DNA of 64,000 nt, taken from positions 1 to 64,000 of the forward strand of contig CASHSZ010000101.1 in the NCBI GenBank assembly GCA_949358305.1. Direction: 5' to 3'. Positions 23,048 to 42,958 of this stretch are shown here, one piece after another. The stretch comes from Strigamia acuminata. Lineage: Eukaryota > Arthropoda > Chilopoda > Geophilomorpha > Linotaeniidae. Position 1 is the stretch's first letter. Each line of letters begins with the position of its first letter. The notes beneath the pieces were generated by a model. The model ran no database searches and was not told where the DNA came from. It saw only the letters and a list, made by a program, of their open reading frames with translations. The translations under genes and the position numbers were made by a program.

Positions 23048-23596
23048 TGTAGCAGAGGAGTGCGCAATTATCAGCGTAATTGCTGATAGGAAGCGTGAAA
23101 ATAAACAAACGAGTTGTACTACGCGTACGAACGGGCGCGATACGCGGCGTATCGACTTCAGCAAATGCGCGCGGCCTAATGCCGCTTATAAGCGCTAACA
23201 AATGCACTGAAATGTGCACTAAATGAACGACAATGTTTAAAACAATAAAACAAGTTTAATATAAACATAATACATTACAAAAGAGTCCAATCTTGGAAGA
23301 AAATCAGCTAGGACACACACGGCTGTGTGTGTCGCCATCTTGGATTCAGATAACAGTGATGAGGGCACCCTGGTGCCGACAATTGACATTAGATATGAAC
23401 AAATCATTGAATTGAAGAACAAATCACAACAGAACCGAATAATAGTATGGAATTACATACGAGACAGCGCAAAACGAATAGTAACATCGAAATCAATTAA
23501 ATAACAACTAAAATACGCTGTATATCTAAGCACAATGGGAAATCTAGGAAAAAAAACAAATATATTCATCGATACAAATTGGTCTTTTGACCAACA
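23048..23596 (-). repeat. 3' LTR of copia element 1
   Basis: The 549-bp LTR reads TGTTGG...GCTACA in element orientation. It matches 29833-30381 at every position I compared. The insertion is flanked by AAACG. Confidence 0.95.
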
Positions 23597-23608
23597 AATC
23601 CCCTCTTC
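23597..23608 (-). other. Polypurine tract of copia element 1
   Basis: In element orientation GAAGAGGGGATT directly precedes the 3' LTR. This is the expected position of the plus-strand primer. Confidence 0.88.
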
Positions 23609-23803
23609 GATGGAAATATTTATCAGGGGACAAGATGAACGTAAACTGGAATTACAGTTGATAATCGTCGAGAAATAAATGATAAAGTCGAATCATCGAG
23701 CCGGGTACTGTCGTGGTTATCACTTAACTAAGCTCGGAATTCCCACAGAAACTCGATGATCCTCGAAATCGGGTGAAACTAAATCAGGAATGTCACGATA
23801 AAG

Positions 23804-26800
23804 TTATGCTCGGAAGATCTTCGAAATGAGTGACCGCAAACGTTCGGATGAGAGCCATTTCGTAAAAATGTCTGCGATATTCACTTCGGATGCAACTTTT
23901 CGAAGATCGAAGACTCCTGTCGTATACCACTCCCTGAGCCAATGATATTTCACGCGAATGTGTCGAGTTTTCGCGTTCTCAATGTCGTTAGACGTGAATT
24001 GGATAGCGGCCAGGGCATCGGAGTAAACAACAGGTCGAGCTAATCGATTGAGAATCGGGAAATCGGTGTATACGGAGTCCAACCAGAAAAGCTCCTTTAC
24101 ACACTCTACTAGGGCGATAAACTCCGCTTCCATAGTAGAGCATGCAACGGTCGACTGTTTTCGACAGGACCAGCCGATAGGGACGTTGCCGATATACACG
24201 ATGTGTCCTCCGAAACTCAAGGAGGTTTCCGGGTCGCTCGCCCACGATGCGTCGGTGAAAGCCGATAACTGACTCGATGTGCAGCCAGATAACTCGATGC
24301 AAAGGTCTGCAGTATTTGCCACGTACTGCAGAACCTGGAGAAGAGCGCGGATGTGGGTTCGGTTGTAGCACGTGTTATACTGTGCTAGAGCGATGACGGA
24401 GTACAAGATGTCGGGGCGAGTCCTCGATGCCAAAAACAATAGAGAGCCGATTACCGATCGGTAGGGAAAATCTTCTAATTTCTCTGTTGACCCACGAACG
24501 AGTGTTGTTCCCGGGGTCACTGGCACCTTAACTCGGTTGTTAGTTGATGTCCCGAACTTCTTTACAATTTTAGCGATGTAAGCACGTTGTGTAATAAACG
24601 TGCGTCCGGCGTCGCGAATGAACTCGACGCCTAGGAGCTTCGTGATCGGGCCGAGATTTACGATATCGAATTTCGAACTGATGAGTCGAATCAGCTGTGA
24701 GAAAACACTGTCGGATGCATAGAATACAACGATGTCATCCACGTAAATCAGCATGACAGCGGTGTTGCCGAGTACGTAGACACAATTGCATGCCGGCATC
24801 TTTCGAAATCCGAGGGCCCGAAGAGTTTCGTCGAGTTTTTCGAACCATTGCCTGCCGGATTGGTGGAGCCCATATAGCGACTTGAGGAGAAGCCACACGT
24901 TGTTCGGGTCGGAGCATGTGGCACCTGCGGGGATTCGCATATATACTTTATGCTTTAACTCCCCGTACAGGTACGCACCTTTCACGTCGAGGTGGGCGTC
25001 CTGCCAACCACGTATTACGACGAGAAGACAGAAAAACAGACGGATCAATATGAAGTTCACGACTGGGCTAAACACCTCATCAAAATCGACTCCGAGGGTT
25101 TGATAAAAACCCTGCGCTACCAAGCGCGCTCGGTATCGGGTGACGGTTCCGGCTGCATCGGTCTTTAATTTGAAAATCCATTTGCAGCCGAGAATAGTGG
25201 TGTCCGGTGGTCGTGGAACTTCAGTGTAAATTTCTCGCTCTTTAAAAGTGTCCAATTCTTCTTGAATGGCTTCCCGCCATTTCGGAGCGTCGTTGAATTT
25301 CGGAATTTCGGCGAATGAAGCCGGTTCGGTTCGGCATAAATGAGCCGCATGACGAACGCCCGGAAGAACCGGTAACTTGTGCTCGAGATTACCGAAGAAA
25401 AATAGTCCGGGGTCGTAATCGATGTTGTTTAACATACAATATTCTTCGATATCATTGTATGATCGCAATCGGATTTTCGGAGTCGGAAAATAATAGACAT
25501 CGATTAAGATTTTTCCGGGTTTTTGATCCTTTCTCAGATGTTCCTCGCGTACCCATTCACGGCACTCGCTATCTCCGCCGACGAATCGCCACTTATGAGT
25601 GGTGTGGCGCGCAGTCGCTGGTGAACTGGGATCGGGGTCGAAGATTTGCAACCCTTGCGTAGCATGATCGTCGACGCGTTGTTGACGACGGGTTGTAATG
25701 AACCTTGGCGTCGGCACCGGTGTTTCGCGAGGAAGTGGGCGTGTTGGCGAGCGCTGAGGTGATGGCGGAGCGGATGTACGAGGAGTTGTTGGAGGCGATT
25801 GTCGAGCCGATTGTTCCGCTGATGCGTCAACGCGTTCGGATGTTTCCGGATAAATCGACAATTCGTCCATCTCTCGGATATCATGGTCCGTATCATGTTC
25901 CTCTTCATACGAAAGGTGATGAGATTGTCGAATGGACGCAGAACCCGGAGGCAACGTCACGCACAAATCCAGCAATTCCCTTTCCGGAGTTGTCGGTGGC
26001 GGAATGTGGATGTGCGGATATGCGGGAGGCGTGTGCATCGAAGCGGATGCCGTTGACACGTGTTGACTATTGCCATTGTCGGTATCATTCGCGGAATGTT
26101 CGGACGCCTCAGAGTCGGATCCCTTCGGCCACTGTTGATAATGGAGGTTATCATCGAATGTAACTGTTTGTTGTCCGGGACCAGTAAACGATTGTTGCGG
26201 CTGCTGCGTCGAAATTTTTATGGATTTCCGATACGACTGCCGCTCATCGATCTTGACGTGAATAGATTCGTAGACCTTATTGTCCGTCGGATTCCAAATC
26301 CTGTATCCACGGGTCCCAGAAGCGTAGCCGACTAAATACCCCTCCCAGGCCCGCGGATCCAGTTTCTTGCGGCCTGGCGCGGTGTAGTGCACCCAGCACT
26401 TAGAACCAACTTTTCGTAGATGTCGTAACGAAAGGGCTCTCTGTCGCCAAAGGATGTATGGGACCTGATTATTAAGTCGGGAATGAGGGCATCTATTTTT
26501 AATGTAACTAAACGTGACGGCGAGTTCGGCCCAGAGCGCTTCTGGCAACTTGGTTTCAGATAAGACTGCACGAAAGTTGTCGGCCATTGTCCGGTTTATG
26601 CGCTCGGCCGTGCCGTTCATCTGTGGCGATGATGGATTCGTTCGTTGTCCTTGGATGCCCTTGTCTTGTAGATATCGGAGAAACTCGTTTGACATAAACT
26701 CTCCGCCTCGATCAGTCCGAATTGCTTTTATTTGCGTGCCCTGGATTCTCTCAACTCGAGCCACGAAGTCCTTAAAGGTTGCGAAAACCTGCGATTTCTG

Positions 26801-28822
26801 GGCCAGCGGTATAATCCAGCAATAGCGTGTCGCGTCGTCGATGACGGTAAGGACGAAACGTGCTCCTCCAAACGATGGAACTGGGGCTGGCCCCCAAATA
26901 TCCATGTGGAGAAGGTCCAAAGGCTTCGTAGTCGAGGGATTCGGATCAGGCTTATGAGAAGCTTTTGTCGATTTGGCTATTCTGCAGTCGTTGCAGGCCA
27001 ATTCCCTGCTCACTTCCCCTGGTTGCATTCCGTAAACTTGGTCGTTTGCGGCCAACAACTTCATTCCATTGGTGTGAAGGTGGCCGAGACGGCTGTGCCA
27101 CAAACCAGTGGCATCCTTGACCGAAGCTGGATTGGCAATGACCTGCGTTTTCGGCTGGGACGGATTGCCGAGGGGAGGAAAGGAATTTGCATTTGGAATT
27201 GCAGTAGGAGTTGCCGTCGGGATTGACTGTAGGGCACTCGCATAGGAAGGAGGGGTGGTCAAATTGTTGTGGATTTGAGTAGGGATAGGAGGAGGAACCG
27301 GATTGGTTGGAATGGGAGCTTGTTGGACGGGAATTTGCTTCACGGGTTCAACTAGCGGCATTTCAATCCGAAAATCCGTAATTTCTCTTTGCTGTCCTTT
27401 TCCCTTTTTCGGTTTGGGAATTTTAATAAAATCCTCTTCTGTTGTGACGTACATTTGCGGCGGTAGCGTTGGAGTCGGTTGTACAGTGGGAGAAACCGTT
27501 GTCGCAAATGTCGGATTCGTACACAAACCGTCCACATAATAAAGACCTCCTCTCTCCTTTGCACGGATAAGAGGGCTGCGAATGTCCGATTGGTAAACAT
27601 GAATCTCACTGTTGAAAACATGAATATGGTGTCGAGCTTTATCAATTTTCGAAACCGAAATCAAGTTGGCCTCGAAATTCGGCGCGTAGAGAACATTGGT
27701 CAAATTCACGGTGCAGCGGGTCTTGTCGATGGCCATTAGCAAACGAACCGTTCCTTTTCCCGTCACTTGGGACTTGCCCTGCCCCAATTCGATATCAAAT
27801 GGAATGACATCGGTGAATTCAACAAATCCAGCTCGCACGTGAGATACATGGTCTGTTGCGCCGCAATCCAGTATCCACTCATTCGATTGCATGAAATGGG
27901 CTACTGGACGTTGGACAACTTGTGGCGCATTGACGAAAAATGTCCCCTCTCGGTGTGGATGCGAGCTTTCTCGGGGACGCGCGTTGTTGGCCTTCGCGGC
28001 AGCGTTCTTGTTGCGCCTGCGACTTTTGCTCCGAGAATTACGTTGGAGTGAAACCGTAGGTTGTCCCTGTTGTTGACGGGGCGGACGTGGACATCGGTTC
28101 GCGTAATGTCCGAGCTGATCACAATTAAAGCATTTCACTGTCGAAATATCCCGAGGTCCGGATTTATTTCGGGGTCGGAATTGTCCCTTCATAGACGCGT
28201 GAGCTGCTGATTGGCTCGTTCCGAGTAACCCGATGGATTTGAGCCGCATGTGCTCGGAAATCAATTGTTCGGCAACATCCTTCGGCGTGAATTGAGGATC
28301 CGGCCAATGGTATATTGCGAAAGTCGCCTGAGCATATTCGGGCGGCAGACACTTCAGATACTGGTACGCGTGGTGAACCGGGCTAATAATCTCGTTGACA
28401 TCGCTTAATTGCCGCACGTAATTGTCGACACGGGCAATGAAATCCGGCATATCCTCGCCAGGTTGGAGTTGGAGGCTGAGGAACTCCCAGCGCATTGCCG
28501 CCTGACGGGCTCTAGAGCTGGGCGCGTAGGTTTTTGCCAACTTGTCCCACGCCTCCTTTGGCGTGTTACCGGTTTCCAAAATAGTACGCTTGGCGGGGCT
28601 CACATGGAGGTATATGAGGCCTAGCGCCTTGTCCCTCTTTATGTTGAAGCGATCAAGTTCTTTAGCCGTCAGGGTGGCAATGTGTTCTGCCTCTTTGTCC
28701 TCCGTTATGTGACGCCAAAGGCCTTCAGATTTCAGGAGAAACTGCATCGACAATCGCCATTGTTCGTAATTGTCGACACCAAGAACCGTAATTAAATTGT
28801 TCGGATTCCCTGATTTGTGCAT
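23804..28822 (-). CDS. gag-pol: Copia gag-pol polyprotein, intact
   Basis: This single frame of 1672 residues encodes the structural and enzymatic proteins for retrotransposition by reverse transcription in cytoplasmic particles. The ATG at 28822 (AAAATGC context) was chosen because the upstream extension has no ATG. Positions below count from 12 codons upstream of it. A gag capsid domain is followed by the zinc knuckle C243-C246-H251-C256. The protease motif is DCGATDH at 331, with Cys where Ser is usual. After a Pro-rich linker (about 450-575), the integrase has H588/H593/C622/C625 and the triad D653, D716, E752. Reverse transcriptase has LDVKGAY (D1291) and YVDD at 1372. RNase H has TDASW, MEAEF and YSDALA. 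No frameshift or stop interrupts it. All catalytic residues I checked are present, so it is likely functional. Confidence 0.96.
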   Translation of the reverse strand: MHKSGNPNNLITVLGVDNYEQWRLSMQFLLKSEGLWRHITEDKEAEHIATLTAKELDRFNIKRDKALGLIYLHVSPAKRTILETGNTPKEAWDKLAKTYAPSSRARQAAMRWEFLSLQLQPGEDMPDFIARVDNYVRQLSDVNEIISPVHHAYQYLKCLPPEYAQATFAIYHWPDPQFTPKDVAEQLISEHMRLKSIGLLGTSQSAAHASMKGQFRPRNKSGPRDISTVKCFNCDQLGHYANRCPRPPRQQQGQPTVSLQRNSRSKSRRRNKNAAAKANNARPRESSHPHREGTFFVNAPQVVQRPVAHFMQSNEWILDCGATDHVSHVRAGFVEFTDVIPFDIELGQGKSQVTGKGTVRLLMAIDKTRCTVNLTNVLYAPNFEANLISVSKIDKARHHIHVFNSEIHVYQSDIRSPLIRAKERGGLYYVDGLCTNPTFATTVSPTVQPTPTLPPQMYVTTEEDFIKIPKPKKGKGQQREITDFRIEMPLVEPVKQIPVQQAPIPTNPVPPPIPTQIHNNLTTPPSYASALQSIPTATPTAIPNANSFPPLGNPSQPKTQVIANPASVKDATGLWHSRLGHLHTNGMKLLAANDQVYGMQPGEVSRELACNDCRIAKSTKASHKPDPNPSTTKPLDLLHMDIWGPAPVPSFGGARFVLTVIDDATRYCWIIPLAQKSQVFATFKDFVARVERIQGTQIKAIRTDRGGEFMSNEFLRYLQDKGIQGQRTNPSSPQMNGTAERINRTMADNFRAVLSETKLPEALWAELAVTFSYIKNRCPHSRLNNQVPYILWRQRALSLRHLRKVGSKCWVHYTAPGRKKLDPRAWEGYLVGYASGTRGYRIWNPTDNKVYESIHVKIDERQSYRKSIKISTQQPQQSFTGPGQQTVTFDDNLHYQQWPKGSDSEASEHSANDTDNGNSQHVSTASASMHTPPAYPHIHIPPPTTPERELLDLCVTLPPGSASIRQSHHLSYEEEHDTDHDIREMDELSIYPETSERVDASAEQSARQSPPTTPRTSAPPSPQRSPTRPLPRETPVPTPRFITTRRQQRVDDHATQGLQIFDPDPSSPATARHTTHKWRFVGGDSECREWVREEHLRKDQKPGKILIDVYYFPTPKIRLRSYNDIEEYCMLNNIDYDPGLFFFGNLEHKLPVLPGVRHAAHLCRTEPASFAEIPKFNDAPKWREAIQEELDTFKEREIYTEVPRPPDTTILGCKWIFKLKTDAAGTVTRYRARLVAQGFYQTLGVDFDEVFSPVVNFILIRLFFCLLVVIRGWQDAHLDVKGAYLYGELKHKVYMRIPAGATCSDPNNVWLLLKSLYGLHQSGRQWFEKLDETLRALGFRKMPACNCVYVLGNTAVMLIYVDDIVVFYASDSVFSQLIRLISSKFDIVNLGPITKLLGVEFIRDAGRTFITQRAYIAKIVKKFGTSTNNRVKVPVTPGTTLVRGSTEKLEDFPYRSVIGSLLFLASRTRPDILYSVIALAQYNTCYNRTHIRALLQVLQYVANTADLCIELSGCTSSQLSAFTDASWASDPETSLSFGGHIVYIGNVPIGWSCRKQSTVACSTMEAEFIALVECVKELFWLDSVYTDFPILNRLARPVVYSDALAAIQFTSNDIENAKTRHIRVKYHWLREWYTTGVFDLRKVASEVNIADIFTKWLSSERLRSLISKIFRA

Positions 28823-28958
28823 TTTGAATCGCTGGACGAGACACGACGCGGAGAACACAAAGGCTCAGAGAGTGGCACAAAATCGGAGCACAATTCACTA
28901 TTCGGAGCACTGCACTTCACTGATCCCCCGTTGTTCAAAGCGGAAAACCAAAATTGGG

Positions 28959-29069
28959 AGGCAATGCTAAAATTGCCTGACAACCTGTGGCAAGTGTCCC
29001 CCCGACGTCCTTTACGACCACCTGGGGTCACGGGAATGTCGGGTGGCGCAGGGCTCAGCCTTGCCACAG
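28959..29069 (-). other. Structured RNA element in the copia 1 leader
   Basis: The element lies between the primer-binding site and gag. Three stems are visible on the + strand: hairpin AGGCAAT/ATTGCCT (28959-28978), stem A CTGTGGCAAG/CTTGCCACAG (28985-28994 with 29060-29069) and, inside it, stem B CCCGAC/GTCGGG (29001-29006 with 29038-29043). The equivalent element at 38887-38997 differs at six base pairs, every one compensated, while spacings are identical and the loops are nearly invariant. The function is unknown; the location suits packaging, dimerisation or translation control. Confidence 0.82.
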
Positions 29070-29814
29070 AATACAATGGTGCGGTGTTCGGAATCGAACG
29101 GAGGGCACCAAGGATTCTAATTGACCCACCAAAATCCCACTTAAAATTAACAAAGGTAATTTCGACACAAAGGAGAAAAAGATGAATCAACTGCGGTTGC
29201 AGTCCTCGTGCAAATGAAGGCACGGCGCGGTTTTCTCGAAAAACCGGAAAAATCGCAATTTGGACGTTAATGTCCGAATTCTTCTCGAAAATTCGAGGCT
29301 CTTCTTCCTCTTGAATAGATCGAAGATTACGACCGTTCACCGGGGAACCAAGCCGCCAATATTCGAGTATTGGATTCTCGTTGGAACTGTCGCCGAAGCT
29401 AAACAGTGTCGTACGGTGAAATCGGCGAAAAATCTGAAAATAAACAAAAATCGTCTCAAAATTCGCGAATCCCGCGTAATTTTGGACGACATTAAATGCA
29501 GAATCGCTCGGAAAACAGCCCTGGCTGTTGTAAAACGTTGGAAACGTCGAAAAACCTGGAAATAACAATTTTTGCCGTGAAATTTGCGAATCCCGCACAA
29601 TTCCAGGCAAATTTAAACACAAAATGGTGAAATCGACGTCGTGACTCGTGGAAAACGTCGGTAATACGTCCCGGGCGTATGACGAAACGTATGGCGAACG
29701 AAAATCCACTCGAAGATCGTTGGGCACTGAAAATAAATGTTTTTGGCGAAAAATCGCGATTTTCGCGAATTTTCCGTCAAAAATTACACAAAAAGCGAAT
29801 GAATTCAGCAAACA

Positions 29815-29831
29815 ACCATCCTCTGCTACCA
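29815..29831 (-). other. Primer-binding site of copia 1 (initiator tRNA-Met)
   Basis: The + strand here reads ACCATCCTCTGCTACCA, identical to the 3' end (including CCA) of the animal initiator tRNA-Met known from vertebrates. It is separated from the 5' LTR by one base. Confidence 0.92.
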
Positions 29832-29832
29832 A

Positions 29833-30381
29833 TGTAGCAGAGGAGTGCGCAATTATCAGCGTAATTGCTGATAGGAAGCGTGAAAATAAACAAACGAGTT
29901 GTACTACGCGTACGAACGGGCGCGATACGCGGCGTATCGACTTCAGCAAATGCGCGCGGCCTAATGCCGCTTATAAGCGCTAACAAATGCACTGAAATGT
30001 GCACTAAATGAACGACAATGTTTAAAACAATAAAACAAGTTTAATATAAACATAATACATTACAAAAGAGTCCAATCTTGGAAGAAAATCAGCTAGGACA
30101 CACACGGCTGTGTGTGTCGCCATCTTGGATTCAGATAACAGTGATGAGGGCACCCTGGTGCCGACAATTGACATTAGATATGAACAAATCATTGAATTGA
30201 AGAACAAATCACAACAGAACCGAATAATAGTATGGAATTACATACGAGACAGCGCAAAACGAATAGTAACATCGAAATCAATTAAATAACAACTAAAATA
30301 CGCTGTATATCTAAGCACAATGGGAAATCTAGGAAAAAAAACAAATATATTCATCGATACAAATTGGTCTTTTGACCAACA
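29833..30381 (-). repeat. 5' LTR of copia element 1
   Basis: This is the partner of 23048-23596, with the same length and no differences seen. In element orientation it lies directly upstream of the primer-binding site and should carry the promoter. Confidence 0.95.
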
Positions 30382-33802: not shown

Positions 33803-34359
33803 TGTAGCTGTGTGGCGCAAAAATATCGCCGAAATAGGCGATAGGAAGCGTAAAACTGAGTCAAACGCACTTCTAAGTGCGGACAAATGCGCGTGATGCG
33901 CGTACGCGAGTTTGAGCGGACTTACGATCAAATTCGCGTGCACTACACTTATAGAAACGTGTAGTGCCGAACTAAATACAATAGTTAACCAAAAATATAA
34001 CATTTATTAAGAGAAAACTTACATAATGGGTCCAGAATCACTGGACAAACACAAGGAAACACACTACCCGTGTGAGCGGCCATTTGTAATGTGCCAGAGA
34101 CATCTGGTGGCCGATATTATAAACAATAATAATGAAAAGCATAAGAACAAGATAGAGGATGCATGAAACCTAATGTATTGAGTACATTTAACCCGGTATC
34201 ACGCATTCTCCTGACAAACAAGCATGAAAACACTAAATAAACACTGAATAACCCAGGAAAATGGAAACAATTACCGATAAATGATAAAATAAACGTTTCA
34301 AAGCCATTTCACATCGAAAAATGATTTAAATAACTCAAAAGTGGTTCCAAAGTCCAACA
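33803..34359 (-). repeat. 3' LTR of copia element 2
   Basis: The 557-bp LTR has TG...CA ends and matches 39731-40287 at all positions compared. It contains several short hairpins, such as GCACTTCTAAGTGC. Confidence 0.94.
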
Positions 34360-34371
34360 ATTCCCTCCTTC
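34360..34371 (-). other. Polypurine tract of copia element 2
   Basis: In element orientation GAAGGAGGGAAT directly precedes the 3' LTR, in the same position and form as in element 1. Confidence 0.85.
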
Positions 34372-34406
34372 GATGTAAAATGTCGGTGCTAAACAATCGA
34401 AAAAAG

Positions 34407-37400
34407 TTACTTCGAGACGAAAATCCGAGATAATAAATTTCGAAGACGCTCTGAACTGAGCCACTTGGTGAAAATGTCGGATACATTTATCTCACCCGGA
34501 ATTTTGCGGAGTTCGAAACATCCGGCAATGTGCCACTCACGAAGCCAGTGAAACTTCACTCGAATATGTTTCGTTTTCGAGTTCTCGATGTCGTTGTTCG
34601 TGAACTGAATCGAGGCGAGGGCATCGGAAAATATGATCGGTTTCGATAACCGACGTAAAGGTGGAAACACTTGATAAATACTGTCGAGCCAATAGAGTTC
34701 TTTGACGATTTCGACAAGTGCCACAAATTCGGCTTCCATTGTGGAGCAAGCGACGCTGGTCTGCTTCTTGCAGCTCCAGCCAATGGGCACACTTCCGATG
34801 TAAACAATGTATCCGCCGAATGATCTCGATGTAGCAATGTCGGAGGCCCAAGAGGCGTCTGTGCAACCCCACAGTTGACTCGAATCGCATTTCGAAAGTT
34901 CGATGGCGTACTCGCTCGTGTTCGCGACGTAACGAAGGACCTGCAGCAAACACTTGATATGGCTCTCGGTGTAGCAGTTGTTGTACTGCGATAATGCGAT
35001 CACCGAGTACAAAATGTCGGGGCGAGTACGTGAAGCCAGGAACAATAAAGATCCGACGAGTGATCGATACGGAAAATCCGGAAGGTCGGTGAGCGGTCCC
35101 TTGACTAACGTGGTCCCAGGTGTGACTGGCACCTTGATGAGCGCGTCAGATGAAACATTAAACTTTTTGAGGAGTTTGTCAATGTAATTGCGTTGAGTCA
35201 TAAAGACTTTCCCGTCACGACGCTCGAACTCGACTCCCAGCAGTTTGGTGATTGGCCCCAGGTCGACGATGTCGAATTTACTCGTGATCAGCTTGAGTAT
35301 TCGATCCCTGATGTTTTCCGAAGCATAAAATAAAACAATATCGTCGACGTATACCAGCATAATGGCCGAATGTCCGTAGGCGTACACACAATTACATGCT
35401 GGAAACTTTTGAAATCCGAGTTCTGTCAATGTTTCATTAAGTTTCTGGTACCACATGCGCCCCGACTGGTGAAGACCGTAAAGCGACTTGGTCAACAACC
35501 ATACGTTGTCGGGCGAGGAACATGTGGCACCAGCGGGAATCCGCATATAAATCTCGTGGTCAAGGTCGCCGTAGAGGTAGGCACATTTCACGTCGAGGTG
35601 CGTGTCCCTCCATCCGAGGAGAATAACCAGCAGACAAAAGAAGAAACGAATTAGGACAAAATTGACTACGGGACTAAAAACTTCATCGTAGTCAACGCCC
35701 ATTGTCTGCCGAAATCCTTGGGCGACCAGTCGAGCACGATATCGGGTAATCTTTCCGGTAATGTCACTTTTGAACTTAAAAATCCATTTGCAACCGAGCA
35801 CAGTCTTGTCAGGGGGTCTCGGAACCTCCTTATAAACGTCTCGTTGCTTGAAAGTCGAAAGTTCCTCGTCGATTGCTTCGGTCCATTTCGGTGCTTCGGG
35901 CAATTTCACAGCTTCGGCGTATGTGGCCGGTTCCCGAAAACACATGTGGACACGAGGAGGCGATGGCGGAGCATATGGCATGTGGTGTTCTAAATTGCCG
36001 AAGAAGAAAACGGACTCATCATACGGTATCCGGTGTGCGAAACAATAAGCGGCGATATCTGTGTGCGACCGCAAGCGGACACCGTGCTCCGGATAATAAT
36101 AAACGTCGACTTTAATCCTCCCCGGAACCTGATCTTTCCGGAGATGCTCTTCTCTCCTCCATCCGCTGAAGGGCGAAACGCCGCCAACAAAACTCCAAGG
36201 GCAATGAAGAGCGCGTAAAGGCGCCAAATTAGGCGTACCCGGAAGTCGGACAGGCAAGGCAGCCGCTTCGTCGAGAAGGTCTTCGTCAAAATCTGAACCC
36301 TGTTCAGACATCGCTGCGGTGTCGTCAAGACCCGGGAGAGATGGGTAGGACATCGAACGCCGTAGATGAGGCAAGCGGGTGGAACGTACGGTCGGAGTAA
36401 ATTGTCCATGTCCTGCAATGGTCGTAACATTATCGGAGCCATCAGCGACGGTAACAGAGCCATCAGCGTCGGTAACAGAGCCATCAGTCGTAGCAGCTAA
36501 GCCGTCAGCAGCGGCGATGAGACCATCAGCTGTAGGAAGAAATGGTGCGAATGAAGCGAAAGACGGAGCACTCGAAGCGACGGAGGGAGCACGACTGGCA
36601 ATACCATCCTCGTCACTGCTGTCAGCAGAAGAGTCGTTATCCGAATCGTGACGTCGACGAGGCCAAGGCTGAGTTGGAAAGTTATCACGAAAAGTGACAC
36701 GTGACGGGATGTGGCCACGAGCAGGCTCCTCCATGGGTGGAGCATTGTCATCCGGATCTGGAACATAAAAGGGCGAGCGCTTAAAGTTCTGCCGTTCATC
36801 GATTTGGACGTGAACAGATTCGGTGACGGTGTTCGTAGCCGGATTCCACACTCGATACCCTCGAGTTCCCGAAGCGTAGCCAACGAGAAATCCTTCCCAC
36901 GCTCGAGGATCCAGTTTGTTGCGTCCAGGTGCGGTGAAGTGTACCCAGCACTTGGAACCAATCTTACGAAAATGTCTGACGGAAAGAGCACGCTGGCGCC
37001 ACAAAATGTATGGGATTTCGTCGTTGAGCTTCGAATGCGGACTGCGGTTTTTGATATATGTGAACGTCACGGCAAGTTCAGCCCAAAGCGTGTGCGAAAA
37101 TCCGGTTTCGGAGTTGATGGAGCGGAGATAGTCGCCCATTGTCCGGTTCAGGCGTTCGGCGACACCGTTCATCTGTGGCGATGCGGGATTGGTCCGTTGA
37201 GCAACAATACCCTTGTCGGCAAGAAAACGGTCAAAATCCCTCGAAATAAATTCTCCTCCACGGTCGGTGCGAATTGTTTTAATCCGGCAATCAGCAATAC
37301 GTTCAACGCGGGAAACAAAGTCTTTAAACGTAGCAAAAACATCAGATTTACGGGCGATCGGGAAAAGCCAGGCGTACCTGGTGGCGTCATCGATAATGGT

Positions 37401-38750
37401 GAAGGCAAAATTAGCACCGCCGATGGAAGGCAGTCTCGACGGGCCCCAGACGTCCATGTGAAGCAATTCAAGCGGTTTCGTGGTTGAAGGCGCGGAAATT
37501 GGCTTATGTGGAGCACGCGTGGACTTGGCAACACGGCACGTGTTGCAGGAAAGTTCCTGGCGAACAGCAGCTGGATCAAGCCCATAAACCTGGGAGTTAG
37601 CCGCTAAAGTCCGCATGGCCTTCGTATGCAGGTGACCCAGCCTGCCGTGCCACAATCCCGTGGCGTCTGCGACGTTGGCAACCGAAGGATTAACTGGTTT
37701 GGGAGGTAATGCTGCGTTTGACTTGGCAACGGGAGGAGGAGATGCGAGGGCATTGGAATACATCCGGATCTGTTGAGGTTGGGATCCGGGAATAGGAGCA
37801 GGACTGGTAGGGAAAAGTGAAGGGACAAGCAAGGTGTTGGAGGAGACGGGCAAGCGGAAATCGGTCATATTGTCAGCCGACTTCTTCTTAGTCTTGTTGG
37901 AAGACTTGGGCAATGCGGGAAAGTCCTCTTCCTTCGTCACTAGAGTGGTCGGTGTCGGAGTCGGAAGTGATGATGAAACAGACGAACTCGAAACATTAGT
38001 CGGAGCGGCGAATGGCGAGATGAGCCCATCCACGAAATAAAGTCCAGACTTCTGTTTCGCCCGAAGAACACTTAGTTTGATGTCCGTTTCATACGTATGC
38101 AATTCCGAGTTGTGAATGTGGATGTGATGTCCGCATTTATCAATCCGAGAAACCGAGATAAGATTGGCGCCGAAGTCAGGTGCGAATAATACGTCGCGGA
38201 GCAATACGGTGCATTCGCAGCCATCGATGAGCGACTTGACCGGAACGTCACCTTTGCCTGTGACCCTCGAACTGCCCTGGCCTAACTCGATGTTGAACGG
38301 GACAACGGAAACAAAGTTCGTAAACCACGCTTTGACGTGCGAAACGTGGTCGGTGGCCCCACAATCGACAATCCATTCGTGGGACTGGAGAAAATGTACA
38401 ACCGGAGCTTCGATCACCGGTGGAGCCGACAACAGGTAAGCGGCGTCCCTTCGGGGACGAGAAACATCACGGTTTTGACCACCGGATTGCTGCGAACTGT
38501 TATTCTGCCGTCGTTTGCTCTTACTGCGGGGTCGGCCTTGTTGAGACGCGACCGGTTGCGGTTCCTTGCCCTGTTTGCGAGGGCGGGGGCACTTATTCGC
38601 GTAGTGGCCGAAAAAGCCGCAATTAAAACAGCGAACCTGCGAAATCGGACGAGGAGGTCGGGATTGATTGCATCCACGATTGTCCATAGCAAAAGCCGAT
38701 GTTTCCTTCGTGTACCGATTCCAATTCAAGTTGGCTCTTGCTGTCTGCAT
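34407..38750 (-). CDS. gag-pol: Copia pol polyprotein with truncated gag
   Basis: This single frame has 1447 residues from the ATG at 38750 (counting below starts 32 codons upstream). The zinc knuckle C73-C76-H81-C86 is preceded by only about 40 residues, whereas element 1 has about 230 there. The capsid domain is therefore missing while the frame remains open. Protease (DCGATDH), integrase (HMDVWGP, RTDRGGEF, GVAERLNR), reverse transcriptase (LDVKCAY, with Cys in place of the Gly of element 1, and YVDD near residue 1166) and RNase H (TDASW, MEAEF, FSDALA) are all present. The linker before RT is rich in Ala/Asp repeats. Without capsid it probably cannot form particles alone. Whether element 1 could supply capsid in trans is an inference. 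Confidence 0.94.
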   Translation of the reverse strand: MQTARANLNWNRYTKETSAFAMDNRGCNQSRPPRPISQVRCFNCGFFGHYANKCPRPRKQGKEPQPVASQQGRPRSKSKRRQNNSSQQSGGQNRDVSRPRRDAAYLLSAPPVIEAPVVHFLQSHEWIVDCGATDHVSHVKAWFTNFVSVVPFNIELGQGSSRVTGKGDVPVKSLIDGCECTVLLRDVLFAPDFGANLISVSRIDKCGHHIHIHNSELHTYETDIKLSVLRAKQKSGLYFVDGLISPFAAPTNVSSSSVSSSLPTPTPTTLVTKEEDFPALPKSSNKTKKKSADNMTDFRLPVSSNTLLVPSLFPTSPAPIPGSQPQQIRMYSNALASPPPVAKSNAALPPKPVNPSVANVADATGLWHGRLGHLHTKAMRTLAANSQVYGLDPAAVRQELSCNTCRVAKSTRAPHKPISAPSTTKPLELLHMDVWGPSRLPSIGGANFAFTIIDDATRYAWLFPIARKSDVFATFKDFVSRVERIADCRIKTIRTDRGGEFISRDFDRFLADKGIVAQRTNPASPQMNGVAERLNRTMGDYLRSINSETGFSHTLWAELAVTFTYIKNRSPHSKLNDEIPYILWRQRALSVRHFRKIGSKCWVHFTAPGRNKLDPRAWEGFLVGYASGTRGYRVWNPATNTVTESVHVQIDERQNFKRSPFYVPDPDDNAPPMEEPARGHIPSRVTFRDNFPTQPWPRRRHDSDNDSSADSSDEDGIASRAPSVASSAPSFASFAPFLPTADGLIAAADGLAATTDGSVTDADGSVTVADGSDNVTTIAGHGQFTPTVRSTRLPHLRRSMSYPSLPGLDDTAAMSEQGSDFDEDLLDEAAALPVRLPGTPNLAPLRALHCPWSFVGGVSPFSGWRREEHLRKDQVPGRIKVDVYYYPEHGVRLRSHTDIAAYCFAHRIPYDESVFFFGNLEHHMPYAPPSPPRVHMCFREPATYAEAVKLPEAPKWTEAIDEELSTFKQRDVYKEVPRPPDKTVLGCKWIFKFKSDITGKITRYRARLVAQGFRQTMGVDYDEVFSPVVNFVLIRFFFCLLVILLGWRDTHLDVKCAYLYGDLDHEIYMRIPAGATCSSPDNVWLLTKSLYGLHQSGRMWYQKLNETLTELGFQKFPACNCVYAYGHSAIMLVYVDDIVLFYASENIRDRILKLITSKFDIVDLGPITKLLGVEFERRDGKVFMTQRNYIDKLLKKFNVSSDALIKVPVTPGTTLVKGPLTDLPDFPYRSLVGSLLFLASRTRPDILYSVIALSQYNNCYTESHIKCLLQVLRYVANTSEYAIELSKCDSSQLWGCTDASWASDIATSRSFGGYIVYIGSVPIGWSCKKQTSVACSTMEAEFVALVEIVKELYWLDSIYQVFPPLRRLSKPIIFSDALASIQFTNNDIENSKTKHIRVKFHWLREWHIAGCFELRKIPGEINVSDIFTKWLSSERLRNLLSRIFVSK

Positions 38751-38886
38751 TTTTCCGGAGGAAAATCGGAGATAATGGCGATAATGAGCACGCATAAACA
38801 CTCGAGGCACTAAAGACGTAATCGGAGCACTTTTCACTCGAAGCACTTCACTAAACGTTGTTAGAAGCGGAATAACCTCGACGGGG

Positions 38887-38997
38887 AGCCAATGCTAAAA
38901 TTGGCTAAGAACCTTAGACAAGTGTCCCCCTAACGTCCTTTATGACCACCTGGGGCCGCGGGAATGTTAGGTGGCGCAGGGCTCAGCCTTGTCTAAG
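38887..38997 (-). other. Structured RNA element in the copia 2 leader
   Basis: The stems on the + strand are AGCCAAT/ATTGGCT (38887-38906), CTTAGACAAG/CTTGTCTAAG (38913-38922 with 38988-38997) and CCTAAC/GTTAGG (38929-38934 with 38966-38971). Interstem distances of 7, 31 and 17 nt are the same as in element 1. It is the partner that reveals the covariation. Confidence 0.82.
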
Positions 38998-39716
38998 AAT
39001 ACAAGCACAGCTTGGACGGAATGTCCGAAGGGCTGTGCCGATACTAATCGGGACCCACTCCAAAAACTTAAAATTAACAAATAAATTCGAAATCTGAAAT
39101 AAAAAGAAGGAGAAGTTGGTGAATCTGTATGCACAGACGTCCCTGTGCACACCGCGCATAAAAAATGCGGAATTCTTCAAAAGATCGCCGACCGATTTCG
39201 AAAACCGGGAAAAACTTCCCGAAAATCGCCGATACTGTCGCACTCCGGGGTGCAGACAGCGGGTTATGCCCGTTTCTGGATGAAAACGTCGCTCAGACGT
39301 TGTCGGAACGTGACAAATGATGAAAATCGGCGAAAAAATCTGAAAATAAATGAAATTTCCGCAAAAATCGCGAAAAATCGCGAAATTCACGAAAAATTAG
39401 AGGGAAAAAAAAGAACAAGACCTTTCCTAGGTCAATTGTCGCTATCTTGCACAATAAATGCACAAAAAGCAGTGTTTTTAACTCGAAAAACACAAAAAAA
39501 CAGTGTTTTTAACTCGAAAAACACGAAAAAAGGTTGAAAAAATTCAAAAATCGACGATTACGACCGCACTCCGGGGTTGTGAACGTCAGAAAGACGTTGT
39601 TGACTGCCGGAAATCGTCGAAAATCTGAAAAAAACAAAAATTTCCGCAAAAATCGCGAAAAATCGCGAAATTCACGGAAAATTAATGGAAAAACGAGGCA
39701 CTGGTGGCTTTCCAGG

Positions 39717-39728
39717 CCTCTGCTACCA
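39717..39728 (-). other. Primer-binding site of copia 2 (initiator tRNA-Met)
   Basis: CCTCTGCTACCA on the + strand matches the last 12 nt of initiator tRNA-Met. It is two bases from the LTR. The match is shorter than in element 1. Confidence 0.85.
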
Positions 39729-39730
39729 CT

Positions 39731-40287
39731 TGTAGCTGTGTGGCGCAAAAATATCGCCGAAATAGGCGATAGGAAGCGTAAAACTGAGTCAAACGCACTT
39801 CTAAGTGCGGACAAATGCGCGTGATGCGCGTACGCGAGTTTGAGCGGACTTACGATCAAATTCGCGTGCACTACACTTATAGAAACGTGTAGTGCCGAAC
39901 TAAATACAATAGTTAACCAAAAATATAACATTTATTAAGAGAAAACTTACATAATGGGTCCAGAATCACTGGACAAACACAAGGAAACACACTACCCGTG
40001 TGAGCGGCCATTTGTAATGTGCCAGAGACATCTGGTGGCCGATATTATAAACAATAATAATGAAAAGCATAAGAACAAGATAGAGGATGCATGAAACCTA
40101 ATGTATTGAGTACATTTAACCCGGTATCACGCATTCTCCTGACAAACAAGCATGAAAACACTAAATAAACACTGAATAACCCAGGAAAATGGAAACAATT
40201 ACCGATAAATGATAAAATAAACGTTTCAAAGCCATTTCACATCGAAAAATGATTTAAATAACTCAAAAGTGGTTCCAAAGTCCAACA
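39731..40287 (-). repeat. 5' LTR of copia element 2
   Basis: This is the partner of 33803-34359, with the same 557-bp length and no differences seen. It is followed by target duplication GTTTG. Confidence 0.94.
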
Positions 40288-40685
40288 GTTTGGTCCACCC
40301 GGAATCCGCAGAATAGTCTCCCCCGAAATGCGGATTTCGCGGACGCCAATCCGCAAAAAGGATAAAAAATTTCCAATGTATAAACTTTATTTCTGTTTTC
40401 AGTTTCCTGATATGATTAAAGAAAATCCTAAATATTATTTCCAAACATTTATCAAATTCTTTTCAAAAGCAGTTGTGGAGGCGTCTACTACGAACGAGTC
40501 ATCGTGGGCGTCAAATTTGAATATTTTTAACTTTCTGCGTTTGCACGAATTCGCAGAATTCGTCCACTGGCATCGTGGCGACGCATGGTCGACATTTTGT
40601 ATTCATATGTGACGCGCACTCTATTTACTCACGTAGAACACACGAATCGCGCGCGTCAACGCGCACATGTAAATTTAGTTTCACT
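40288..40685. repeat. Resumed FB flank and truncated transposon end
   Basis: Positions 40288-40363 continue the flank broken at 33802. Positions 40364-40685 equal the truncated TIR-transposon end at 12636-12953. Confidence 0.85.
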
Positions 40686-42600
40686 GAATCGCGTACGAGT
40701 TTTTCCCTTTTTCAACGCGAAATCGTATTCGACTCGCTTTCTAGTCGAGTACGAATTTTGCCCTTCTTCAACGCGAAATCGTATTCGACTCGCTTTCTAG
40801 TCGAGTACGAATTTTGCCCTTCTTCAACGCGAAATCGTATTCGACTCGTTTTCGAGTCGAGTACGAATTTTGCCCTTCTTCAACGTGAAATCGTATTCGA
40901 CTCGTTTTCGAGTCGAATGCGAATTTTGTCCTTCTTCAACGCGAAATCGAATTCGACTCGTTTTCGAGTCGAGTACGAATTTTGCCCTTCTTCAACGCGA
41001 AATCGTATTCGACTCGTTTTCGAGTCGAATGCGAATTTTGCTTTTCTTCAACGCGAAATCGTATTCGACTCGTTTTCGAGTCGAATGCGAATTTTGCCCT
41101 TCTTCAACGCGAAATTGTATTCGACTCGTTTTCGAGTCGAGTGCGAATTTTGCCCTTCTTCAACGCGAAATCGTATTCGACTCGTTTTCGAGTCGAGTAC
41201 GAATTTTGCCCTTCTTCAACGCGAAATCGTATTCGACTCGTTTTCGAGTCGAATGCGAATTTTGCCCTTCTTCAACGCGAAATCGTATTCGACTCGCTTT
41301 CGAGTCGAATGCGAATTTTGCCCTTCTTCAACGCGAAATCGTATTCGACTCGTTTTCGAGTCGAATGCGAATTTTGCCCTTCTTCAACGCGAAATCGTAT
41401 TCGAGTCGCATCCGAATCGAATACGAGATAGTCGATGACCCGTTCCCGGACTTTGACTCGTACGACTCGTATTCGAGATGTATTCGAGATGTATTCGAAT
41501 CGTATTCGAGTCGCATTCGAGATGGTCGATGATTTCCACTCGCTCGTATACGCGTTGTATACGAGCTCGTATTTTGATCGTAATCGTAAACGAATCGTTT
41601 ACAAGTCGTATACAAGTTGTATACGACGTGTATACACCTCGTATACGAACGAAGTTTGGAAAATCCACCGGATACTTACTACGACATGAAAACACATAGT
41701 AGTCACATACGTCTTATTTGGAAATTGTGTTTTCACAAACTTCGTTCGTATACGAGGTGTATACACGTCGTATACAACTTGTATACGACTTGTAAACGAT
41801 TCGTTTACGATTACGATCAAAATACGAGCTCGTATACAACGCGTATACGAGCGAGTGGAAATCATCGACCATCTCGAATACGACTCGAATTCGATTCGTA
41901 TTCGATTCGAATACGATTCGAATTCGATTCGAATACGAATACGATCAAAATACGAACTCGTAACAACTCGAATACGAATCAAAGTCCGGGAAACAAAAAT
42001 CGACCATCTCGTATACGATTCGAAAGCGAATCGAATACGATTTCGCGTTGAAGAAGGGCAAAATTCGTACTCGACTCGAAAACGAGTCGAATACGATTTC
42101 GCGTTGAAGAAGGGCAAAATTCGCATTCGACTCGAAAACGAGTCGAATACGATTTCGCGTTGAAGAAGGGCAAAATTCGCATTCGACTCGAAAACGAGTC
42201 GAATACGATTTCGCGTTGAAGAAGGGCAAAATTCGCATTCGACTCGAAAACGAGTCGAATACGATTTCGCGTTGAAGAAGGGCAAAATTCGCATTCGACT
42301 CGAAAACGAGTCGAATACGATTTCGCGTTGAAGAAGGGCAAAATTCGTACTCGACTCGAAAACGAGTCGAATACGATTTCGCGTTGAAGAAGGACAAAAT
42401 TCGCATTCGACTCGAAAACGAGTCGAATACGATTTCGCGTTGAAGAAGGGCAAAATTCGTACTCGACTCGAAAACGAGTCGAATACGATTTCGCGTTGAA
42501 GAAGGGCAAAATTCGTACTCGACTCGAAAACGAGTCGAATACGATTTCGCGTTGAAGAAGGGCAAAATTCGTACTCGACTAGAAAGCGAGTCGAATACGA
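40686..42600. mobile_element. Foldback-like element FB-C
   Basis: This is a duplicate of FB-B: left 56-bp array about 40692-41400, one core module (spacer word at 41686), right inverted array about 42000-42595. It lacks about 60 bp present in FB-B before the CGAGTCGCATCCGAATCG junction. Confidence 0.75.
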
Positions 42601-42958
42601 GATCATTTTTTGATCTGGGTCGTGAATGCGTCCGTATGTCACGCGAACGCGTGTTGGAGTCGATTCCGAGTTCGTATTCCATCTTGAACGCGCATTGGAG
42701 ACGTAAACCAGTTTATTTTACCCACTCTCGCTCGATCCCGCTTCATCGCTCCTTGTCGCTCCTGTGAATAAAAATACATGAGAATGTGCAGAAATGAACC
42801 TTCCAATACTCACATGAAAATTGACAACCTTGACACAAAACAGTCTATTGACACTCCCAACACCACCCCGGACATTTTCCGGAAGAGTTTGGTCCACCCG
42901 GAATCCCCAGAATAGTCGCCCCCGAAATGCGGATTTCGCGGAAGCCAATCCGCGAAAA
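42601..42958 (-). repeat. FB flank with intron-like segment (copy 5 of 6)
   Basis: Near-identical to 14931-15289. Its right end at GGATAT is fused to the second gene-bearing block, marking a duplication junction. Confidence 0.75.

Follow-up and report, generated by a model that had tools for sequence, protein, structure and literature searches.

Two copia elements in one window

The window (the whole stretch analysed, 64,000 nucleotides of contig CASHSZ010000101.1 from the centipede Strigamia acuminata) carries two full-length Ty1/copia elements on its minus strand. Both show the hallmarks of the class: long terminal repeats (LTRs), a primer-binding site (PBS), the gag-integrase-reverse transcriptase (gag-IN-RT) gene order, and target-site repeats.

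23048..30381, minus strand: element 1, full-length copia element; ends placed by eye from the target-site repeat AAACG
23048-23596 and 29833-30381, minus strand: element 1 LTRs, an identical pair
29816..29831, minus strand: element 1 PBS, complementary to the 3' end of initiator Met tRNA, identified by eye
23804..28822, minus strand: element 1 gag-pol ORF, 1672 aa; gag AUG at 28820-28822
33803..40287, minus strand: element 2, full-length copia element; target-site repeat GTTTG
33803-34359 and 39731-40287, minus strand: element 2 LTRs, an identical pair
34407..38750, minus strand: element 2 gag-pol ORF, 1447 aa counted from the second in-frame AUG; no capsid domain

Both elements are probably young, since in each the two LTRs are identical and a target-site repeat is present. 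Their gag-pol proteins are 55.7% identical. The element 1 protein contains the Pfam domains Retrotran_gag_2, zf-CCHC, rve, and RVT_2; 17 related gag-pol proteins were found, the best at 29% over residues 1-480. Outside the coding sequence, the two elements share a single strongly conserved segment, in the leader between the PBS and gag (285 and 271 nt, 74%, E 6e-44). All further noncoding matches between them are at most 67 nt long.

Two features of the window stand apart from this leader. Both Pols contain, between integrase and reverse transcriptase, a stretch resembling a methyl-CpG-binding domain (35931-36221 and 25328-25615, minus strand). The element 2 fragment matches PF01429 at E 1.5e-6 (28.2 bits; cut-off 21), and the element 1 stretch falls under the cut-off (E 0.0097, 16 bits); a two-sequence profile matches PDB MBD2 chains at E 0.045-0.065 only. 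No such stretch was found in the three relatives scanned (P0001-P0003), and a full-text literature search, judged by title, gave no paper on such a stretch in copia Pol. It could be a chromatin reader, comparable to the chromodomains of other elements. Separately, long arrays of a 56-bp tandem repeat occupy positions 40574-42680, and several frames are open there on both strands.

A structured RNA in the leader

An earlier note drew attention to the 111-nt segments 28959-29069 and 38887-38997, describing them as aligned without gaps and as differing at six stem pairs that keep their pairing. Both statements hold. The alignment is gapless (94/111 identical), and 12 of the 17 differences make up six base pairs, of which stem A (10 bp) holds three, stem B two, and the hairpin one. 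Each of the six has changed on both sides and still pairs. The other five differences are unpaired. Three lie in the stem B loop, in keeping with the "about three" loop and joining changes of the note; two more, which had gone uncounted, sit in the linker that joins stem A to the hairpin.

Because both elements lie on the minus strand, the RNA corresponds to the printed segment read as its reverse complement. The 111-nt segment proves to be part of a larger module, 167 nt long, with an additional covarying stem-loop at the 5' side. The 3' limit lies just past the PE hairpin in the alignment of 15 distinct copies.

28955..29121, minus strand: leader RNA of element 1, 167 nt, with covarying structure; 5' end at 29121
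38883..39048, minus strand: leader RNA of element 2, 166 nt; cmsearch 168 bits, E 2.8e-38, for a sequence belonging to the covariance model's own training set
29077..29110, minus strand: P0, 5' stem-loop with an outer helix of 6 bp and an inner helix of 4 bp; missed by the earlier note
29060..29069, minus strand: PA (stem A), 5' strand, pairing with 28985-28994
28985..28994, minus strand: PA, 3' strand, pairing with 29060-29069
29044..29059, minus strand: joining strand A/B, 16 nt, nearly invariant
29001..29043, minus strand: PB (29038-29043/29001-29006) and PC (29033-29035/29008-29010)
29015..29030, minus strand: PD hairpin; basal pair 29030/29015 always U-G or C-A
28959..28978, minus strand: PE hairpin, 7 bp, at the RNA 3' end; 4 of 7 pairs double-changed

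RNAalifold, supplied with no structure, predicts all 41 pairs of this fold and six more. It also predicts pairing for parts of joining strand A/B, where the lack of variation leaves no covariation signal. Pseudoknots (CCUG/CAGG and CCACC/GGUGG) are possible by eye, in letters that vary so little that covariation is uninformative. When the unpaired segments were searched for long-range partners elsewhere in their own element, element 1 gave one 8-nt match and element 2 none; no second site shared by the two elements and complementary to these segments was found. A pol III promoter in the leader was weighed by eye only and dropped.

Covariation across copies

Further copies were gathered from the same genome, which supplied all those analysed here. 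A core pattern allowing up to three mismatches has 312 matches in the genome, compared with 1 for the reversed control. From 78 chosen sources the covariance model made 79 matches, two of them within the window; these loci had been picked for matching, so that the number is not a discovery rate.

Pairing is nearly complete at each depth of sampling. Among 15 distinct copies, in an alignment not fitted to the covariance model, 98.4% of cells are paired and 16 of the 41 pairs show double changes. The corresponding values are 98.7% and 23 of 41 for 28 distinct copies (of 44 matches), and 98.0% standard pairs and 24 of 41 for 56 distinct copies (of 79 matches), both from alignments fitted to the model, toward which their counts lean. 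When the partner column is slid by 1-3 positions, pairing in the 56 copies falls to 27-42%. Double-change cells number 57, 206, and 378 in the three alignments, against 18.4±3.5, 69.4±7.2, and 124.5±14.9 after shuffling; none of 500 shuffles reaches the observed value in any of them. Of 500 shuffles, 6 reached the count of double-changed pairs seen in the 56 copies. The number of further standard pair types was not above chance: 24, 40, and 49 in the 15, 28, and 56 copies, values reached by 498, 500, and 417 of 500 shuffles.

In the 56 copies, P0 shows double changes at five of six outer and two of four inner pairs (99.1% and 99.5% paired), and one copy (L070) has lost most of this stem-loop. 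Stems A and B, where unpaired substitutions in further homologues would by the earlier note's criterion speak against the structure, are 99.6% and 99.4% paired. PA has double changes at 8 of 10 pairs; in the PB/PC helix three pairs are double-changed, five are invariant, and one deviates by an unpaired cell only. PE is 99.7% paired. The lower value for PD (87.5%) arises because C-A is scored as unpaired; two other PD pairs are changed on both sides in 23 and 20 of the copies.

Relatedness among copies calls for tests that take descent into account. These used a 55-row MAFFT alignment, likewise not fitted to the model, and a tree from that same alignment; one row with a large P0 deletion (s55) was left out, and some rows are out of register in P0, so the counts for that helix are poor there. 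Both partners of a pair changed on 50 branches, and the pair was kept on 48 of them; the null gives 7.7±2.5 branches, with a maximum of 17 in 2000. Where only one side changed, over all helices together, 44 changes preserved a standard pair and 21 disrupted one. An all-pairs APC-corrected G-test with a parsimony null was the strictest test; it finds three pairs at E<=0.05, all within the structure, among the 25 structure pairs that vary on both sides; its power is limited because the copies are related. Covariation above phylogenetic expectation, which the earlier note had set as the standard, is thus found for the structure as a whole and for few single pairs. The fold itself seems to be under selection.

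Sense strand, invariant core, and a special pair

Variation is unevenly spread over the unpaired positions. Inside PA, 24 of 37 unpaired columns never change, and the average is 0.70 inferred changes per column; the values are 2.01 for paired columns and 1.94 for unpaired columns outside PA. The earlier view that the loops stay fixed while the stems change is therefore correct inside stem A and fails outside it. All 16 columns of joining strand A/B are at least 96% identical in the 56 distinct copies.

At the base of PD, 33 of these 56 copies have a C-A pair and 23 a U-G pair. C-A and U-G pairs are isosteric, and therefore geometry may be what selection keeps at this position.

Outside the special pair (97-112), cells read on the sense strand contain G-U 62 times and A-C 6 times in the 56 copies (85 and 39 with that pair included). 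On the antisense strand this bias would be reversed, which identifies the selected molecule as the element's own sense RNA. The PBS, gag-pol, and LTR order likewise all define minus as the sense strand. The antisense RNA has the lower folding energy over the 111 nt (copy 1, -52.4 versus -46.9 kcal/mol; copy 2, -41.2 versus -37.4 kcal/mol), and was rejected because the G-U bias and the element orientation both pick the sense strand.

Position, strand, tree-aware covariation, a nearly invariant unpaired core, and the lack of any Rfam match together support the proposal, made at the outset from two copies, of a selected functional leader RNA of no named family in this copia lineage, with packaging, dimerization, or translation among its conceivable roles.

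Position before gag

In most copies the spacing between the RNA and gag is similar. The first AUG past the RNA opens gag at about 115-175 nt in 78 of 89 cases among the loci listed. In the first set (49 loci listed, 78 processed) 42 do so directly, five are of the element 2 type, starting 15 codons upstream in frame, and two do not. In the second (40 loci listed), where many gag starts were judged from 8-9 residues, 36 do so directly, one is of the element 2 type (the same locus as L026), and three do not.

Upstream of the RNA, AUG is depleted: summed over 17 related leaders, 25 were observed and 95.5 expected, with a fixed 605-nt stretch taken for the eight leaders that lack an exact PBS match. 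The control triplet CAT is somewhat low too (129 versus 167.9). The two window elements have two upstream AUGs each, where 12.5 and 8.3 are expected, and their upstream ORFs have no common end before the fold.

Families that lack the capsid domain

The copia gag domain (PF14223) is present in element 1 and has no match in element 2, whose protein aligns to that of element 1 only from residue 223, just ahead of the zinc knuckle. By eye, a start codon and a CCHC motif are present in element 2. The 30-nt start of this shortened gag occurs in 37 copies, all exact; at that start, 29 of 30 loci are collinear with element 2.

A 35-nt core from the element 2 RNA is exact at 79 places, the 37 shortened-gag copies among them (compared by eye). 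Seven of the other 42 were examined, and in all seven tblastn finds a match to the capsid domain, split into two pieces in L255 and in L023. The RNA of six capsid-encoding loci is identical to that of element 2 at 108/110 positions, and that of L023 at 111/111. Just upstream, the 50 nt before the RNA in capsid-encoding loci match element 2 at 26/35 to 36/46 positions. Two further loci, L058 and L076, retain the RNA and carry a different in-frame capsid deletion, in L076 read from a short translation only. Another, L052, matches just residues 159-230 of the gag query, with the frame not established. The RNA is thus kept in families that lack the capsid domain and have nonetheless amplified; the identical LTR pair of element 2 belongs to one of them.

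Exchange among families is also likely. In L002 the 111-nt core is identical to that of element 1, and its 3.1-kb locus is 78% identical; either co-packaged RNAs have recombined or the core is strongly constrained. RNA modules may be carried from one family to another by recombination. Two observations concern the elements at large. In 16 of 30 element-2-type loci (L009-L038) the LTRs are only 88-89% identical to those of element 2 and the LTR-to-gag-pol stretch is about 97-98% identical to it overall, a sign of LTR exchange by recombination. Three element-2-type cores on C12 (8592762, 8598986, and 8605210) lie on one strand at a spacing of exactly 6,224 bases, which resembles an array of tandem elements with common LTRs.

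A proposed packaging signal and its alternatives

What might such an RNA do? The chances are about even that it is a cis-acting packaging signal of the genomic RNA, similar to the retroviral psi. Gag, probably through its zinc knuckle, would bind the compact fold, and the bound fold would select the transcript for virus-like particles; capsid-less families would take Gag made by others, the RNA being kept as their entry into the particle. The leader RNA has three features of a psi-type signal: it lies between the PBS and gag on the genomic RNA strand, its structure is conserved, and it is retained by defective elements that would presumably need Gag in trans. Set against this, its location shortly before the gag AUG suits translation control equally well, and capsid-less families could keep the RNA for translating the remaining ORF, or by recent descent alone. 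In Ty1, moreover, point mutations in the 5' pseudoknot stems do not affect packaging, full disruption being described as unexplored in an excerpt of the account cited (PMC8396678).

The main rival is translation control, given the similar spacing of RNA and gag in most copies. Here the fold would govern ribosome access to the gag AUG by internal entry, by shunting, or as a switch between translation and packaging. This is a real but lesser possibility, favored by the first AUG past the RNA opening gag directly in most loci listed of both sets, and by the AUG depletion upstream. The same depletion speaks against internal entry, since an AUG-poor leader suggests scanning and makes an IRES needless, with the reservation that the control triplet is also somewhat low. 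Many upstream AUGs that block scanning are common, although not obligatory, in IRES leaders, and the 17 leaders show the opposite; nor does any Rfam IRES family match. A shunt needs upstream ORFs that end at a common place before the fold, and those of the two window elements do not. A role in RNA export, stability, or host-factor binding is improbable, although a conserved fold with a nearly invariant core would suit any protein ligand.

The remaining alternatives concern the core and the DNA. The invariant joining strand might pair with initiator Met tRNA as an element for priming reverse transcription, in the manner of the Ty1 boxes; an excerpt on Ty1 describes Box0 and Box1 as binding the primer tRNA (PMC8396678). 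RNA positions 71-79, of which eight fall within the joining strand, show complementarity to nt 7-15 of this genome's initiator Met tRNA, which the PBS points to as primer. However, tRNA-Trp likewise offers 9 nt (among 33 distinct strings, several of one tRNA kind), so the match may well not be specific, and the site lies about 0.7 kb from the PBS; this reading too is unlikely. A self-cleaving ribozyme is a distant prospect. The compact fold and nearly invariant core would fit one, and plant retrozymes are reported to carry hammerheads (PMC4918200); but no Rfam family, ribozymes included, matches at E<=5, and cleavage between the PBS and gag would cut the genomic RNA. It is scarcely credible that the pattern has no RNA function at all. 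In that case quasi-palindrome correction, by template switching in hairpin DNA or cDNA, would keep the arms complementary and recombination would spread the copies. Such correction does yield double changes on one branch, and recombination between families is likely (L002, L023). Nevertheless, the excess of G-U over A-C is one that, to our knowledge, no DNA mechanism produces, and neither the invariant unpaired columns within PA nor a pair that is U-G or C-A in 56/56 distinct copies fits this explanation.

Relation to known systems

None of the 4227 covariance models of Rfam 15 matches the 64 kb at the gathering score, nor positions 28700-29400 at E<=5, in agreement with the earlier note, which recognized no named family. 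Among the papers listed by full-text searches, in a collection with few of the subscription journals, none describes this leader RNA in its title or at the start of its abstract. Viral contigs gave 0 matches to the core pattern, and a protein search of them confirmed no relative. In prokaryotes, a search for relatives gave 98 matches to a shorter pattern; cmsearch found two of 80 loci, at E 0.38 and 0.67, which were taken as chance.

The retroviral psi sits between the PBS and gag; whether the leader RNA is homologous to it in sequence was judged through Rfam only. An excerpt of PMC8396678 places psi near the 5' end of the genomic RNA, bound by Gag, as Gag would presumably bind here. The Ty1 5' leader, as described in the same excerpt, contains the PBS, Box0/1, PAL1/2, CYC5, a pseudoknot, and a proposed packaging region (+230-580), with packaging sequences still not precisely defined (PMC8396678). 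Going by that description, the leader RNA shares with Ty1 the copia superfamily, a structured 5' region (in Ty1 with cis-acting roles in packaging and priming), and the initiator Met tRNA primer (PMC8396678). It differs in being a single compact module of 167 nt that lies a short way upstream of gag and has covariation support from several families.

For the capsid-less families, the nearest parallel is the BARE1/BARE2 helper-parasite pair of barley. BARE2, a Gag-less copia element, is packaged into particles in trans and retains packaging and dimerization signals, as an excerpt of PMC3735527 relates. In that plant element a deletion abolishes the start codon (PMC3735527, same excerpt), whereas element 2 has a start codon and CCHC motif by eye.

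Packaging signals are a known kind of element; what is new here is this module, with its record of covariation and its presence in capsid-less families as well. The leader RNA is a candidate new RNA family. More tentatively, it may represent the first packaging module with covariation support from a copia lineage of animals. It would then be a 167-nt psi, built around a nearly invariant unpaired core and an obligate wobble-type pair, that capsid-encoding helpers share with capsid-less parasites; the parasites would have arisen by repeated capsid loss and would use the same Gag. The 48 pair-keeping branch changes, the nearly invariant core, and a near-identical RNA in capsid-encoding and capsid-less families make the choice of RNA by copia Gag testable with a small module, because natural families supply those variants.

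A last observation concerns the tRNA rather than the leader. Among the 40 initiator Met tRNA matches listed, 10 run from nt 10-13 to nt 73, and another 11 are pieces of 30-33 nt that fall within nt 7-41. Both kinds look like products of retroelement priming or of a tRNA-derived repeat.
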